Made by a program: the position numbers and the translations under genes | In this document: piece by piece, positions 5,121-9,856 of the stretch | Layout: each line of letters opens with the position of its first letter | Numbering within the stretch: the stretch's first letter is position 1 | Assembly: GCA_019456305.1 (NCBI GenBank) | Contig: VRUD01000027.1 | Span: forward strand, 1-48,026 | Length of the DNA stretch: 48,026 bases | Reading direction: 5' to 3' | Origin: Cytophagales bacterium | Lineage (GTDB): Bacteria; Bacteroidota; Bacteroidia; Cytophagales; VRUD01 | Notes under the pieces: generated by a model | What the model saw: only the letters and a program-made list of their open reading frames with translations | What the model was told of the DNA's origin: nothing | The model's database searches: none

Positions 5121-6275
5121 TTACCGAATAGTATCACTTAAAACCGTTTTAACAGAATCCTGAGATACTTGCACCACCTGCTTAACCACCTTCTTCCTGT
5201 ATATTTTCCTCTTTAACTTTTTCAGCGCACCCGCTGCATCCTGGTTCAGAGAATCTAAACTAACAGCCATTTCATATTGTGGGATCGCTTCCTTTTTGCG
5301 GGCTCTATATTCATAAGTTCGTCCTAACAAATAATAAGCAGAACTCATCTGTTGATTACTCTTTACCCCGCCAGTTGGCGGGGCCCTGCCCCGCCAACTG
5401 GCGGGGCCCTGCGCATTTATTGCATTCAAAAAATATATCTCCGCATCATCATAATTTCGTTCATTGAAAGCCAATACGCCCAGATTATAATGAGCCAGAT
5501 AAAATTCAGGATCAAATTCCAATGCTTTTAAATAACACGCCTTTGAAGTATCCAATTCATTTAAGTATTGAAATGTAACTCCTTTATTATAATACAGGAA
5601 CGGGTTGGCCGCGTTGTACCTTAAACCGGAGTTAATATACTGCATGGCAATATCGTATTCTTTCCTGGCATTAAATAGTCTTACAAGGTTATTATGCGCT
5701 TCAACATATTCAGGGGTTTGCTCAATAGCTGTTTGCAGGTTTGAAATGGCTCTGGCAGTATCTCCGATTTCAGCGTATATCATCCCTTTGTAGAAATAAG
5801 CATCAGCATTGAAAGGAGTGATCCTGAGAGCTTTATTCATATAATCAAATGCTTTTTGGTATTGCATGACGATGTAATACATCTCTCCGATCAATATAAA
5901 AAGTTCCGGATTTTTTAACTGCAACAATTCTGCTTTTTCCGCTGCTTTCAAACTCAATTTAATTTTATTAATTGCCCTGTATGCTTTAGATTTAATGAAA
6001 TAATATTTTCCATTTATAGAATCCTTTTCAAGAGCAAATATAATATCATTCAAAGCCAGTGTATCTTCACCCGCTTCCAGGTATAGTTTAGCCCTTTTAT
6101 AATAAAGCTCAGGGTTTTCGGGGTTATTTTTGATGGCATCGCTTACAGCTAGTAGCTTAGCTTCTGTGGGGTTTGTTTCAAGTTGAACTTCGTGGATACT
6201 ATTATCACTATCGCTTTTGGAACCACAAGCGTTTAAGAATAAAAAAGTGCCAATTATAAATATATAAAATTTCAT
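5121..6275 (-). CDS. TPR-repeat lipoprotein
   Basis: A 384-residue predicted lipoprotein. The signal peptide MKFYIFIIGTFLFLNAC ends at lipobox Cys17. The rest is a chain of about eight tetratricopeptide repeats (PELYYKRAKLYLEAGEDTLA, PELFILIGEMYYIVMQYQKA, ADAYFYKGMIYAEIGDTARA and so on), a protein-interaction scaffold. The C-terminus is basic and Val-rich. The partner is unknown. Residues about 290-303 (QGPASWRGRAPPTGG) are foreign to the repeat pattern and come from a GC-rich palindrome inserted in frame between two TPR helices. RAYT starts upstream on the same strand, ending 5 bp away. Confidence 0.85.
   Translation of the reverse strand: MKFYIFIIGTFLFLNACGSKSDSDNSIHEVQLETNPTEAKLLAVSDAIKNNPENPELYYKRAKLYLEAGEDTLALNDIIFALEKDSINGKYYFIKSKAYRAINKIKLSLKAAEKAELLQLKNPELFILIGEMYYIVMQYQKAFDYMNKALRITPFNADAYFYKGMIYAEIGDTARAISNLQTAIEQTPEYVEAHNNLVRLFNARKEYDIAMQYINSGLRYNAANPFLYYNKGVTFQYLNELDTSKACYLKALEFDPEFYLAHYNLGVLAFNERNYDDAEIYFLNAINAQGPASWRGRAPPTGGVKSNQQMSSAYYLLGRTYEYRARKKEAIPQYEMAVSLDSLNQDAAGALKKLKRKIYRKKVVKQVVQVSQDSVKTVLSDTIR
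5366..5406. repeat. In-frame palindromic insert CCCCGCCAGTTGGCGGGG x2
   Basis: CCCCGCCAGTTGGCGGGG (5366-5383) and its exact complement (5389-5406) are separated by 5 bp inside the TPR lipoprotein gene. The surrounding gene is AT-rich. The same 18-mer forms the 3' end of the response-regulator gene at 36251-36268, and a 16-bp version lies at 5076-5091. Confidence 0.85.
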
Positions 6276-6280
6276 GTTTT

Positions 6281-7105
6281 TTAAAATATTTTATTCACAT
6301 CATCATCATCAATAATTTTATACGACATTTCATAAAACTCCTTTTTATTGCTGGGGAGATCAACTAATTCTCTAGCCAATTTTTGATTACAAAGTGTTTC
6401 ATTTCTTTTTCCTATATATTCTTTAAAAGAGGAAAACTCCCAATCTTCCATCCTTTTAACCAAACCAGCTTCCATTGGGTTTTTATGGATGTAGTTGAAA
6501 CATATAAGGGGATAATACTCATCAGATGACGCATCTAAACATTTTTCTTTTGTTTTTTGCTGAAATAAAGATCCGGTTCTTCTTTCTTGTATATTAATAG
6601 CTCTTGTATATGATCTTAATAATACACCTATAGCGTTATTGAGTTTATAGAGCTGGTTATCATCGGATGACTGGTTGGAATCAGGGTTGGCGTCATCCGA
6701 TGAATAGGTGGATTTTACCCTCCCACATTCATCGGATGACCCCTCGCCTCGTATCATCCAGTCATCAGATGATAGCTTACCCTTTACGCTTAGGCCGTCA
6801 TCGGATGACTGGTTGGGAAGAGGGTTGGCGTCATCCGATGAATAGGTGGCTTTTCCCTTCACACATTCATCGGATGACCCATCGCCTCGTATCATCCAGT
6901 CATCAGATGATTGCCAACTCTTTGTATAAATTAAAAAATGAAAATGATTTGGCATTAAACAATATGCTAATATTTCACAATAATCAAGTAAATATTCTTT
7001 AATTTTTCTCAAAAAGAAAAGATAGTTTTCCCTTCCAAAAAATATTTTCTGTTTATTATTACCTATATTGTAAATATGATAAAGTTGTTCTGATTGAAAA
7101 TACAT
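6281..7105 (-). CDS. RAYT-like Y1/HUH transposase with internal repeats
   Basis: A 274-residue IS200/REP-associated tyrosine transposase (Y1_Tnp). The fold elements are all visible: N-terminal strand and helix, HUH motif in MPNHFHFLI (His54, His56), catalytic Tyr166 in LLRSYTRAIN, and the downstream RTGSLFQQKTKEK, ICFNYIHKNPMEAGLV and DWEFSSFKEYIG typical of chromosomal RAYTs. Such enzymes cut single-stranded DNA at REP palindromes. Residues about 66-149, between the HUH strand and the Tyr helix, are an extra SSDD/SSDE repeat array. One further SSDE sits at the later loop LDASSDEYYP. Without the array the protein would be a normal 190-residue RAYT. Whether it is active is unknown. Confidence 0.88.
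   Translation of the reverse strand: MYFQSEQLYHIYNIGNNKQKIFFGRENYLFFLRKIKEYLLDYCEILAYCLMPNHFHFLIYTKSWQSSDDWMIRGDGSSDECVKGKATYSSDDANPLPNQSSDDGLSVKGKLSSDDWMIRGEGSSDECGRVKSTYSSDDANPDSNQSSDDNQLYKLNNAIGVLLRSYTRAINIQERRTGSLFQQKTKEKCLDASSDEYYPLICFNYIHKNPMEAGLVKRMEDWEFSSFKEYIGKRNETLCNQKLARELVDLPSNKKEFYEMSYKIIDDDDVNKIF
6660..6910. repeat. Regular array of TCATCSGATGA palindromes inside RAYT gene
   Basis: Eight near-palindromes TCATC-N-GATGA begin at 6660, 6693, 6729, 6762, 6798, 6831, 6867 and 6900, spaced alternately 33 and 36 bp. The centre bases run G, C, G, A twice, so the array is two copies of a 138-bp unit, the second partial. Spacers of 22 and 25 bp differ within a unit but recur between units with some substitutions, while all palindromes are intact. 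A ninth unit lies alone at 6519-6529. Every unit is in frame. Confidence 0.9.
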
Positions 7106-7156
7106 ATTTTTAATATATTGGTTTTGAGGTTTTGATCGATTCTACAAAATTAACAA

Positions 7157-9856
7157 TTACAACCTGAACTGCACCGAAAACCTAATCCCAAAATTATTAT
7201 CATGAGGATATTTAGTTTTATTATAGTATGTTAAGCGATGAAATGCTTCTACCCTGAACAATCTTAAAATATTTTCAATGCCATAGCTGACCTCAACGTA
7301 GGGAATTATAACCCCAGGTATTTTTAGTATTTTAAATTCTTGATCTAGTGTTCCAAATTGTTGATCTTCTTTTGGTATATTATCTTCTCTTACTACGCCT
7401 CCAAACAACACATTTGCTGTTGCAATCGCTCTCCATTTTAATTTCTTAAATAAAGGGATTCGATTAAATATCAGCCCGTTAAAATGATGTCTGTAATTTA
7501 GCCATACATAACTATCACTGACAAACTCAAAATAATTCATTAAATTAAAGGTCTCCCTGTTATAAAAGGGTGTTTCATTTCCCAGATGCACTGCCAGGAG
7601 CGGATAAGGCAGCACTGAAAAAATATGTCCTGCAGTAAGTGAATAGTACGAAATACCAAACTGACCTAACCTAAACTTATCGCTTATATTTAAAGTTACT
7701 TTATGATAGTCAAAATCACTAAAAAGAACGTTGCTTATACCCAATGTATATCTAATCGTTAGAATAGGCCATTTTTTAGCTCCAAGGCTAATTCTTTCAT
7801 TGTCGTTTTGTATAAAAGCCTCATCTTTTGCAAACCTTGATTCAAAGGTCACTTCGGTTGTGACAAAATCATTTATTACCGTATCCCCTCCATTTGGTTC
7901 TGGAGTAGGGTATTGAAAATCAAACTGAGGAATAAATGAATAATTTTTGAATGTGATTTTTTCTGTAATACCTTTTACAAATTCACTTTGTATCCATAAT
8001 TTCTTTTCCTCACTATAAAAAGGCTTACTCAATACGCCATAGTTTGAAAAGGCAAGAAAAAGGTTATTTTCAATTTCATCAGTCAAACCAACCTGCCTGA
8101 GGTCATACTTATACCCGAACCCCATTTCGGTACGGGGATTGAAACTTGCAATATATCTTACCTTAGCGTCATATTTCCATTTCCGGTCAAAGGTACCATA
8201 GGCAACATATCCTTTAAATATCAATTTTTTGCTGAAATCATAATTTGTTCTGAAACCTATCCGGATCCTTGAATGTTCAATATTATTATAGGTATATAAA
8301 AACGCATAAGAACCAAGATCAATCTTGCCAAGTGAGTAATACCCGTTAACGATTATATCTATAATATCAATATAAGTTTTGATCAGTGGCATGTTTCTTA
8401 GCGTATCTATCATATCATAAACATTCCTATCTGTTGCTGTAAGTGTATCATGGCGCTGTTCGGCCCAAAATTCATTATCATCCATATTTTGAAGAGCATC
8501 TTCGGCTACTACTATCTTATCTTCATAGAATTTTATATCTTTTGGTTCATTAACTTTAAAGTTCCTGTTTGATGTATAAAACTTCGCAAGCATTCCTGCC
8601 CAATCATCTTTAACTTCAGCTATATCTATCAAAACACGGTTTTTAACCGGCAGCCATGCACCAGCTTCAGTCTGTTTTAATTCCTGCTGTATCTTAATTT
8701 TTTCAATATAATTAAGATTGGCGCTTTTACCAACCGTAACATCAATCCGTTTCAATGCGAAGGAAGTATCTGCAATCCAAATAGTACCCCAGAATGCAAG
8801 GTCCTGTGGACGTTTGGGGTTGATCTCTATTTTATAGCACCACTCATTTCCAAGAAACATACTGTCTGCCAACAAATATTGGTAATAAAGTCTCCAGCCA
8901 TCGGCAATAGGAGAAACAAAATCTTTTTCCAATATACTGAGCCAGTTCTCATAAAAATTATACTGTTGAAATGAAGTACCAATTATTTGTGATACCAAAG
9001 TTCCATCATCCAAACCTACCCCGGTAATTTTTGTATGGAGTATATCTTCCCTGGATTTTTTGGGATTATCACGGTAGTGATACTTAGATATTGACTCTGA
9101 AACGAAAACCGGTAAAACAGGCCTGCCGTCCTCACCTGCTAATTGCTGAAGACTATCAAAAATTGATGTGATCTTCCGCATGATCTTTTTATTTCGGAAT
9201 TTATCAGTAATGTTATCAATATCCAATTCAATCTTATTATAACTCTCATATTCATAAGCAGACAGTGATCTTTTATCATTTTTTGATTTGTTTTTAATAA
9301 CTTTTCTCATGGTTGCAAATGCAGGATTTTCACCTGCAACCACTACTACTTCTTTCAGTTTCAGAGCGGCACTTTCCAATTGAAAATTAATTGGTTTAAT
9401 GAAACCTACTTTGGAAATTTCCATCTTCCAATCTCTCTTTTCTAACTTCACTGCTTTAACTTTTGTAATATATCCAATATAAGAGGCAACTAATGAATCG
9501 GTGGGTTTATCTGTACTCAACCTGTAATACCCTTCAAAATCTGTGGTTGTGCCAATTGTTGTACCCTTAAAATAGACATTCACAAAGGGCAAGCCATCTG
9601 CGGTTTGTGCATCAGTGATCCTGCCTTTTACAACTACAATTTTTTGTTGGGCAATAAGCAACTGAGAAAAACATAATAGCATGGCGCAAAGCGCATAGAG
9701 CATAGCATCCCGAGTAACCCGGGAGCGAAAAATGCCTGCTTGCCAGGTATAAGCCCTCGTATTGGCAGGTGGGCCTTGAGCGTAGGGAACACCATGCGCT
9801 TTACGCCATGCACCCAGCGCTTTTAGAGTAGCTGTTTGCCAAAGTTTTTTAAGCAT
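7157..9856 (-). CDS. DUF5686 / carboxypeptidase-regulatory-like outer-membrane protein
   Basis: An 899-residue envelope protein. After the signal peptide (MLLCFSQLLIAQ) comes a carboxypeptidase-regulatory-like beta-sandwich (about 73-150: VVKGRITDAQTADGLPFVNV, GTTTDFEGYYRLS), then a long DUF5686 region rich in beta-strands that ends in an aromatic-terminated barrel (NNFGIRFSVQFRL). Function is unknown; the family is Bacteroidota-specific and outer-membrane. The first 51 residues are not protein-like and derive from interspersed repeats at about 9690-9850. Starts at ATG 9703 (MLYALCAMLL) or 9682 (MLLCFSQ) would give a normal signal peptide. The upstream MLKK start may be the original one, separated by the insert. 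Confidence 0.85.
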   Translation of the reverse strand: MLKKLWQTATLKALGAWRKAHGVPYAQGPPANTRAYTWQAGIFRSRVTRDAMLYALCAMLLCFSQLLIAQQKIVVVKGRITDAQTADGLPFVNVYFKGTTIGTTTDFEGYYRLSTDKPTDSLVASYIGYITKVKAVKLEKRDWKMEISKVGFIKPINFQLESAALKLKEVVVVAGENPAFATMRKVIKNKSKNDKRSLSAYEYESYNKIELDIDNITDKFRNKKIMRKITSIFDSLQQLAGEDGRPVLPVFVSESISKYHYRDNPKKSREDILHTKITGVGLDDGTLVSQIIGTSFQQYNFYENWLSILEKDFVSPIADGWRLYYQYLLADSMFLGNEWCYKIEINPKRPQDLAFWGTIWIADTSFALKRIDVTVGKSANLNYIEKIKIQQELKQTEAGAWLPVKNRVLIDIAEVKDDWAGMLAKFYTSNRNFKVNEPKDIKFYEDKIVVAEDALQNMDDNEFWAEQRHDTLTATDRNVYDMIDTLRNMPLIKTYIDIIDIIVNGYYSLGKIDLGSYAFLYTYNNIEHSRIRIGFRTNYDFSKKLIFKGYVAYGTFDRKWKYDAKVRYIASFNPRTEMGFGYKYDLRQVGLTDEIENNLFLAFSNYGVLSKPFYSEEKKLWIQSEFVKGITEKITFKNYSFIPQFDFQYPTPEPNGGDTVINDFVTTEVTFESRFAKDEAFIQNDNERISLGAKKWPILTIRYTLGISNVLFSDFDYHKVTLNISDKFRLGQFGISYYSLTAGHIFSVLPYPLLAVHLGNETPFYNRETFNLMNYFEFVSDSYVWLNYRHHFNGLIFNRIPLFKKLKWRAIATANVLFGGVVREDNIPKEDQQFGTLDQEFKILKIPGVIIPYVEVSYGIENILRLFRVEAFHRLTYYNKTKYPHDNNFGIRFSVQFRL
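9690..9835. repeat. Repeat-derived 5' end of the DUF5686 gene
   Basis: This stretch contains GCATCCCGAGTAACCCGGGA, CTTGAGCGTAGGGAA and CCATGCGCTTTACG, matching the composite repeat at 5028-5112. A CTGCTTGCCAGG..CCTCGTATTGGCAGG inversion is set inside it. It is open in the frame of the DUF5686 gene and encodes residues lying before the signal peptide. Confidence 0.65.

Follow-up and report, generated by a model that had tools for sequence, protein, structure and literature searches.

A 48,026-nucleotide stretch of contig VRUD01000027.1 of a Cytophagales bacterium (assembly GCA_019456305.1), here called the window, encodes on its minus strand (6281-7105) a RAYT (TnpA-REP) tyrosine HUH transposase of 274 amino acids. 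Inside this intact open reading frame (ORF) lies an in-frame array of four abutting REPIN-like elements of about 69 bp each (6648-6922, minus strand), occupying the loop between strand β3 and helix αC. In our judgment the array most probably arose when a repetitive extragenic palindromic (REP)/REPIN-like element inserted in frame where the RAYT has a permissive loop, and was then duplicated in tandem. Four observations support this directly: the identity of the array units with an element dispersed in the same genome, an empty site in a paralogue, an intact and constrained protein core, and hairpins in the same loop of other Bacteroidota RAYTs.

The building block of the array is an 11-bp palindrome, TCATC-N-GATGA. 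Exact TCATCNGATGA sites occur nine times in the window, all of them within the RAYT ORF (starts at 6519, 6660, 6693, 6729, 6762, 6798, 6831, 6867 and 6900) and all in one reading phase. Permitting one mismatch raises the count to 10, against an expectation of 1.45, and no shuffle came up to this count; chance palindromes are thereby ruled out. Eight of the nine form a duplicated 138-bp (46-codon) unit with a spacing of 33/36 bp, its copies lying in tandem at 6786-6923 and 6648-6785. Viewed as elements, the array alternates in orientation: element 1 (6854-6922, minus strand; palindromes 6867-6877 and 6900-6910) is followed by element 2 in the opposite orientation (6786-6854, plus strand; 6798-6808 and 6831-6841), element 3 (6716-6784, minus strand; 6729-6739 and 6762-6772) and the again opposite element 4 (6648-6716, plus strand; 6660-6670 and 6693-6703). 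The two 138-bp copies are 90% identical over 126 nt. They differ at 12 of these positions (21 of 138), none of which touches a palindrome (44 bases in all; P = 0.004 and 0.0001, respectively), and as single-stranded DNA (ssDNA) the array folds with a z of -9.4. The regular arrangement, and the drift of the spacers around intact palindromes, are thus as the initial annotation had described them. The ninth palindrome (6519-6529) stands alone in the segment ahead of the tyrosine motif, where it encodes DASSDEYY; it could be what is left of an element, or have arisen by chance.

The array units are copies of an element that is scattered through the genome. We counted 94 TCATCNGATGA-type palindromes and 44 adjacent pairs, against none for a reversed-pattern control. 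The pairs are spaced 33-36 bp start to start, and three of the 44 are formed, within the RAYT array, by palindromes of units that adjoin each other. The copies share a consensus of about 69 bp, AnAAGnGnTGGCTA-TCATCGGATGA-CTnnnnnGnTTGTGCGTTGGGG-TCATCCGATGA-ATnTGnnGG. With their alternating orientation, the four units in the RAYT fit it in the flanks as well as in the palindromes. Within each unit the two 11-bp palindromes, 33 bp apart, fold jointly into a hairpin with a 12-bp stem; two dispersed copies folded as ssDNA likewise gave 12-bp stems (z -4.6 to -5.1), the hairpin that characterizes a REPIN. The nearest dispersed match to element 1 is an 81-bp stretch at C22:38172-38252 that is 96% identical to the array, and a composite tail-to-tail pair at C22:225-353 resembles half of the array. 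Altogether the element occupies about 39 loci, and of the 39 inspected only the RAYT locus offers a convincing host gene: other copies within ORFs of at least 100 amino acids lie in ORFs that look spurious (simple repeats) or upstream of a probable signal peptide. In being short, palindromic, present in many copies and mostly extragenic, the element is like a REP or REPIN, and the link to REP biology first suggested for the array is supported. Separately, many copies in this genome (L011, L013, L015, L017, L038 and others) are flanked by short tandem repeats, for example of GGAATAA, TTGTCA and ACTGCCA units.

Profile matches, motif alignment, an AlphaFold2 model and the substitution pattern of the core together identify the host as an intact RAYT. 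Pfam Y1_Tnp matches the protein (E 9e-5), as does NCBIfam REP_Tyr_transpos (E 4e-13), the latter with 49.5 bits where the curated cut-off is 80. Both the HUH motif (NHFH, residues 53-56, 6938-6949, minus strand) and a tyrosine motif of the YIxxNP type (YIHKNP with the presumed catalytic Tyr205, 6476-6493, minus strand; compared with the motif table of Quentin et al. 2018) are present in a Y1 fold; the N and both H of the former and the Y, H, N and P of the latter are invariant in the RAYT alignment. The closest solved fold to the model is E. coli TnpA-REP with a REP hairpin (4ER8; Foldseek E 9.7e-6). In the model a confident, ordered core stands beside residues 67-142 of the array, which are disordered. 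The initial annotation had placed the array between the HUH strand and the tyrosine helix. It does follow the HUH strand (residues 54-61); on its other side, however, is helix αC (147-174), and Tyr205 sits on a later helix (198-212). Compared with the paralogue in C61, which is 63% and 65% identical in two matched parts, the core has a dN of 0.25 and a dS of 1.68, with 51, 25 and 86 differences at the first, second and third codon positions. By this comparison of sequences, the core is under purifying selection.

Related RAYTs reveal both empty and occupied versions of the same site. The C61 paralogue and the nearest relatives lack the insert, and the loop at the array position is short in the paralogue and in the RAYTs of three other genomes (G018, G020 and G036). 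As had been proposed, we looked for the palindrome in related genomes, and found it both flanking and inside RAYT genes of other Bacteroidota: among the matches listed, TCATC-GATGA pairs occur in many members of the phylum, and such palindromes flank Pedobacter RAYTs, several of which are arranged as REPtrons, that is, as a RAYT flanked by its cognate REPs. Genomes with the pair are enriched in this type of RAYT (E <= 1e-40), which is present in 20 of the 35 genomes reached via listed TCATC-GATGA loci versus 35 of 395 phylum-wide (Fisher p 4e-11). In an order-level sample of 390 genomes, the pair was found only in this genome and once in one other. Within the RAYT gene itself, palindromes occupy the same loop in a Flavobacteriaceae metagenome-assembled genome (MAG; CSMAG_2370, L237), a Bacteroidetes MAG (L241), Alkaliflexus (L249) and Cfx3-09 (L250). 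An inverted-repeat search with shuffles, made without manual curation, labelled a long loop hairpin in 15 of 53 sampled RAYTs and none in the other 38, and several of the loop inserts share sequence with their gene's own flanking REPs (CTCAC-type in L240 and L244, GATAGCCTCAC-type in L262). On a tree of the 53 RAYTs, the hairpin label needs seven changes, at least four of them forced by well-supported branches. The window gene groups with non-carriers (its clade of 30 contains just two genes with a hairpin), so its insert was likely gained independently.

Three further observations were made on these relatives. Distant-branch RAYTs (L092, L093, L094 and L095) have long perfect hairpins of unrelated sequence in the loop that follows their HUH motif. 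In the Bacteroidetes MAG Cfx3-09, a RAYT gene (L222, 6693-7628) seems split: a small ORF similar to a GIY-YIG protein separates the N-terminal portion (7479-7628) from the remainder (6693-7202). In the Prolixibacteraceae MAG PL24a_bin.47 (L115, L117, L158 and others), TCATC-GATGA pairs are often found no more than a few dozen bases from a contig end, as if the assembly broke at the repeat.

The course of events that we favour is as follows. A tail-to-tail pair of units would have entered the RAYT gene in frame, in the loop on the protein surface that joins the HUH strand to helix αC, and the resulting 138-bp pair would then have duplicated in tandem. This RAYT or a close relative may mobilize the element by cleaving and joining ssDNA, and RAYT genes may be frequent targets through proximity or through the ssDNA exposed during replication or transcription; insertions would survive in this loop because extra residues are tolerated there. 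Because the units copy the dispersed element and TCATC-GATGA genomes are enriched in this RAYT type, it is plausible that the array is a substrate of the RAYT, and the RAYT and the element are likely to be cognate enzyme and substrate. That the RAYT itself moves the element is suggested by the known chemistry of the family together with the association data. Several points weigh against this account. The genome contains other RAYT-like genes (in C61, C47 and C84), and no TCATCNGATGA flanks the window RAYT anywhere in the 48-kb window, in contrast to a classical REPtron. The element lacks the 5' GT[AG]G foot, its consensus here being GGTTGGCTA-TCATC, although GTAG-TCATC is present in Pedobacter frigiditerrae. 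The extragenic status of the other 38 loci was judged by ORF inspection. Finally, the relatives drawn include no genome of the same family.

It is possible, though we think it unlikely, that the palindromes are there for regulation: the RAYT would bind its own REP hairpins in the gene or messenger RNA (mRNA), or an mRNA hairpin would limit translation, and intragenic REPs would be kept as a restraint on a harmful nuclease. The repeated acquisition of hairpins by one loop fits this idea, as do the inserts that match a RAYT's own flanking REPs and the palindromes left unchanged between array copies; as RNA, moreover, the array forms a very stable fold (z -11.5). A permissive loop, however, is enough to explain the position, and the RAYTs without such a hairpin, the majority of those sampled, include the gene's own paralogue and those of Pedobacter.

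A second possibility, to which we give similarly little weight, is that the RAYT gene is a passive host, one tolerated in-frame landing site of an element moved by another enzyme, be it a paralogous RAYT or another HUH nuclease. The further RAYT-like genes and the lack of REPs around the window RAYT (on C27) fit such a view, and a second palindromic family also lies in frame in the neighbouring gene. Yet the RAYT gene makes up about 0.02% of the coding DNA and is still the sole convincing host among the 39 loci, and in other genera, too, TCATC palindromes flank or enter this type of RAYT. The neighbouring gene just mentioned, a TPR-type ORF (5121-6275, minus strand), carries two in-frame copies of a GC-rich palindrome, CCCCGCCAACTGGCGGGGC, at 5366-5410 of the window. 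A search with this stretch listed 87 matches across the genome, a second palindromic family that also enters coding sequence.

A broader proposal is that the intragenic hairpin is selected as a self-limiting switch, acting through autoregulated cutting of the gene or through mRNA structure, and that for this reason Bacteroidota RAYT genes repeatedly gain their cognate REP in one and the same loop. The four-element array would then be an amplified form of this switch, in a RAYT that does not belong to the subclass from which such insertions are known. We regard this as rather improbable.

The initial annotation had also raised the possibility that the array is a protein module. This would be a functional SSDD/SSDE linker selected as peptide, and the regularity of the array, its unit lengths in multiples of three and its acidic, Ser/Asp-rich peptide would suit one. 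We consider this very unlikely. The 138-bp copies differ by 11 nonsynonymous codons and one synonymous codon, and the eight changes that could be compared fall 3, 4 and 1 by codon position. The array thus has no third-position bias, where the core has a third-position excess, and the comparison between array and core that had been recommended suggests, with small numbers, an array without strong peptide-level constraint. The array is predicted to be disordered, and the same DNA is present outside genes. In the four other RAYTs with palindromes in this loop (L237, L241, L249 and L250), the palindrome is read in another phase, as H-x-M instead of SSDD; it is therefore the DNA, and not the peptide, that is shared. 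Among the relatives compared, none kept the SSDD/SSDE peptide while losing the palindrome, the pattern that had been associated with an ordinary protein repeat. An artefact of assembly or chance is scarcely credible: repeats may confuse a draft of 159 contigs, but the two copies have drifted apart within an open frame, other contigs hold dispersed copies and further species show the same arrangement.

REP insertions within tnpAREP genes have been reported for subclass 2.4, Bacteroidetes included (Quentin et al. 2018, PMC6006769; Bertels RAYT group 4), so the initial view that no such RAYT had been described does not stand. Like the members of that subclass, the window RAYT has a variable β3-αC insertion with REP sequence inside the gene and the frame kept. 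It differs from them in carrying four bipartite units (~90 amino acids) that include a tandem duplication, in the missing GT[AG]G foot and in having no REPs around the gene within the window. Of the subclass 2.4 motifs (NH[IFV]H, WQ and YIxNNP), NHFH fits, WQ is replaced by FQ, and YIHKNP departs. Subclass 2.6, also from Bacteroidetes, is defined by NH[LIV]H, YIH[QN]NP, a 21-amino-acid αC-β4 insertion and an atypical REP without the GTAG foot. The REP of the window fits this description and YIHKNP nearly does (the paralogue has YIHQNP), whereas NHFH does not and no αC-β4 insertion is seen. By sequence, then, the motifs of the window RAYT fall between subclasses 2.4 and 2.6.

The element itself resembles REPINs and BIMEs, which are inverted REP pairs (Bertels and Rainey 2011, PMC3116915), in being dispersed, mostly extragenic, RAYT-linked and made of inverted palindromic halves that form a hairpin; it differs in its odd-length 11-bp palindromes, its lack of a GTAG foot and its about 40 loci. 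As a palindromic mobile repeat tolerated in frame, it also recalls Rickettsia palindromic elements and the intragenic REPs reported when GTAG- and CGTC-tagged repeats were surveyed, among them clusters that code for 43-82 amino acids (PMC3733652). Rickettsia palindromic elements enter many unrelated host genes, however, and here the RAYT is the only convincing one among the 39 loci. E. coli TnpA-REP (PDB 4ER8) shares the HUH and tyrosine core of the window RAYT but is 13% identical in the match, recognizes GTAG REPs and has no loop array.

Self-insertion of REPs in RAYT genes is thus already known, and the present case is an unusually large one. It adds a four-unit array, an element that lacks the GT[AG]G foot and a RAYT with motifs intermediate between two subclasses, together with a TCATC-N-GATGA class of REPs spread across Bacteroidota, of which a palindrome text search of the open-licence PMC literature, judged by titles and abstracts, found no sequence-level description. 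The gene offers a clear, dissectable example of a domesticated ssDNA transposase whose own gene carries its probable substrate. One loop has gained inserts repeatedly, and these often match the REPs that flank the gene. Whether RAYTs move REPs, and what they move them into, thereby becomes a question for comparison and biochemistry, since each REP copy within a RAYT gene directly records which enzyme is paired with which repeat.
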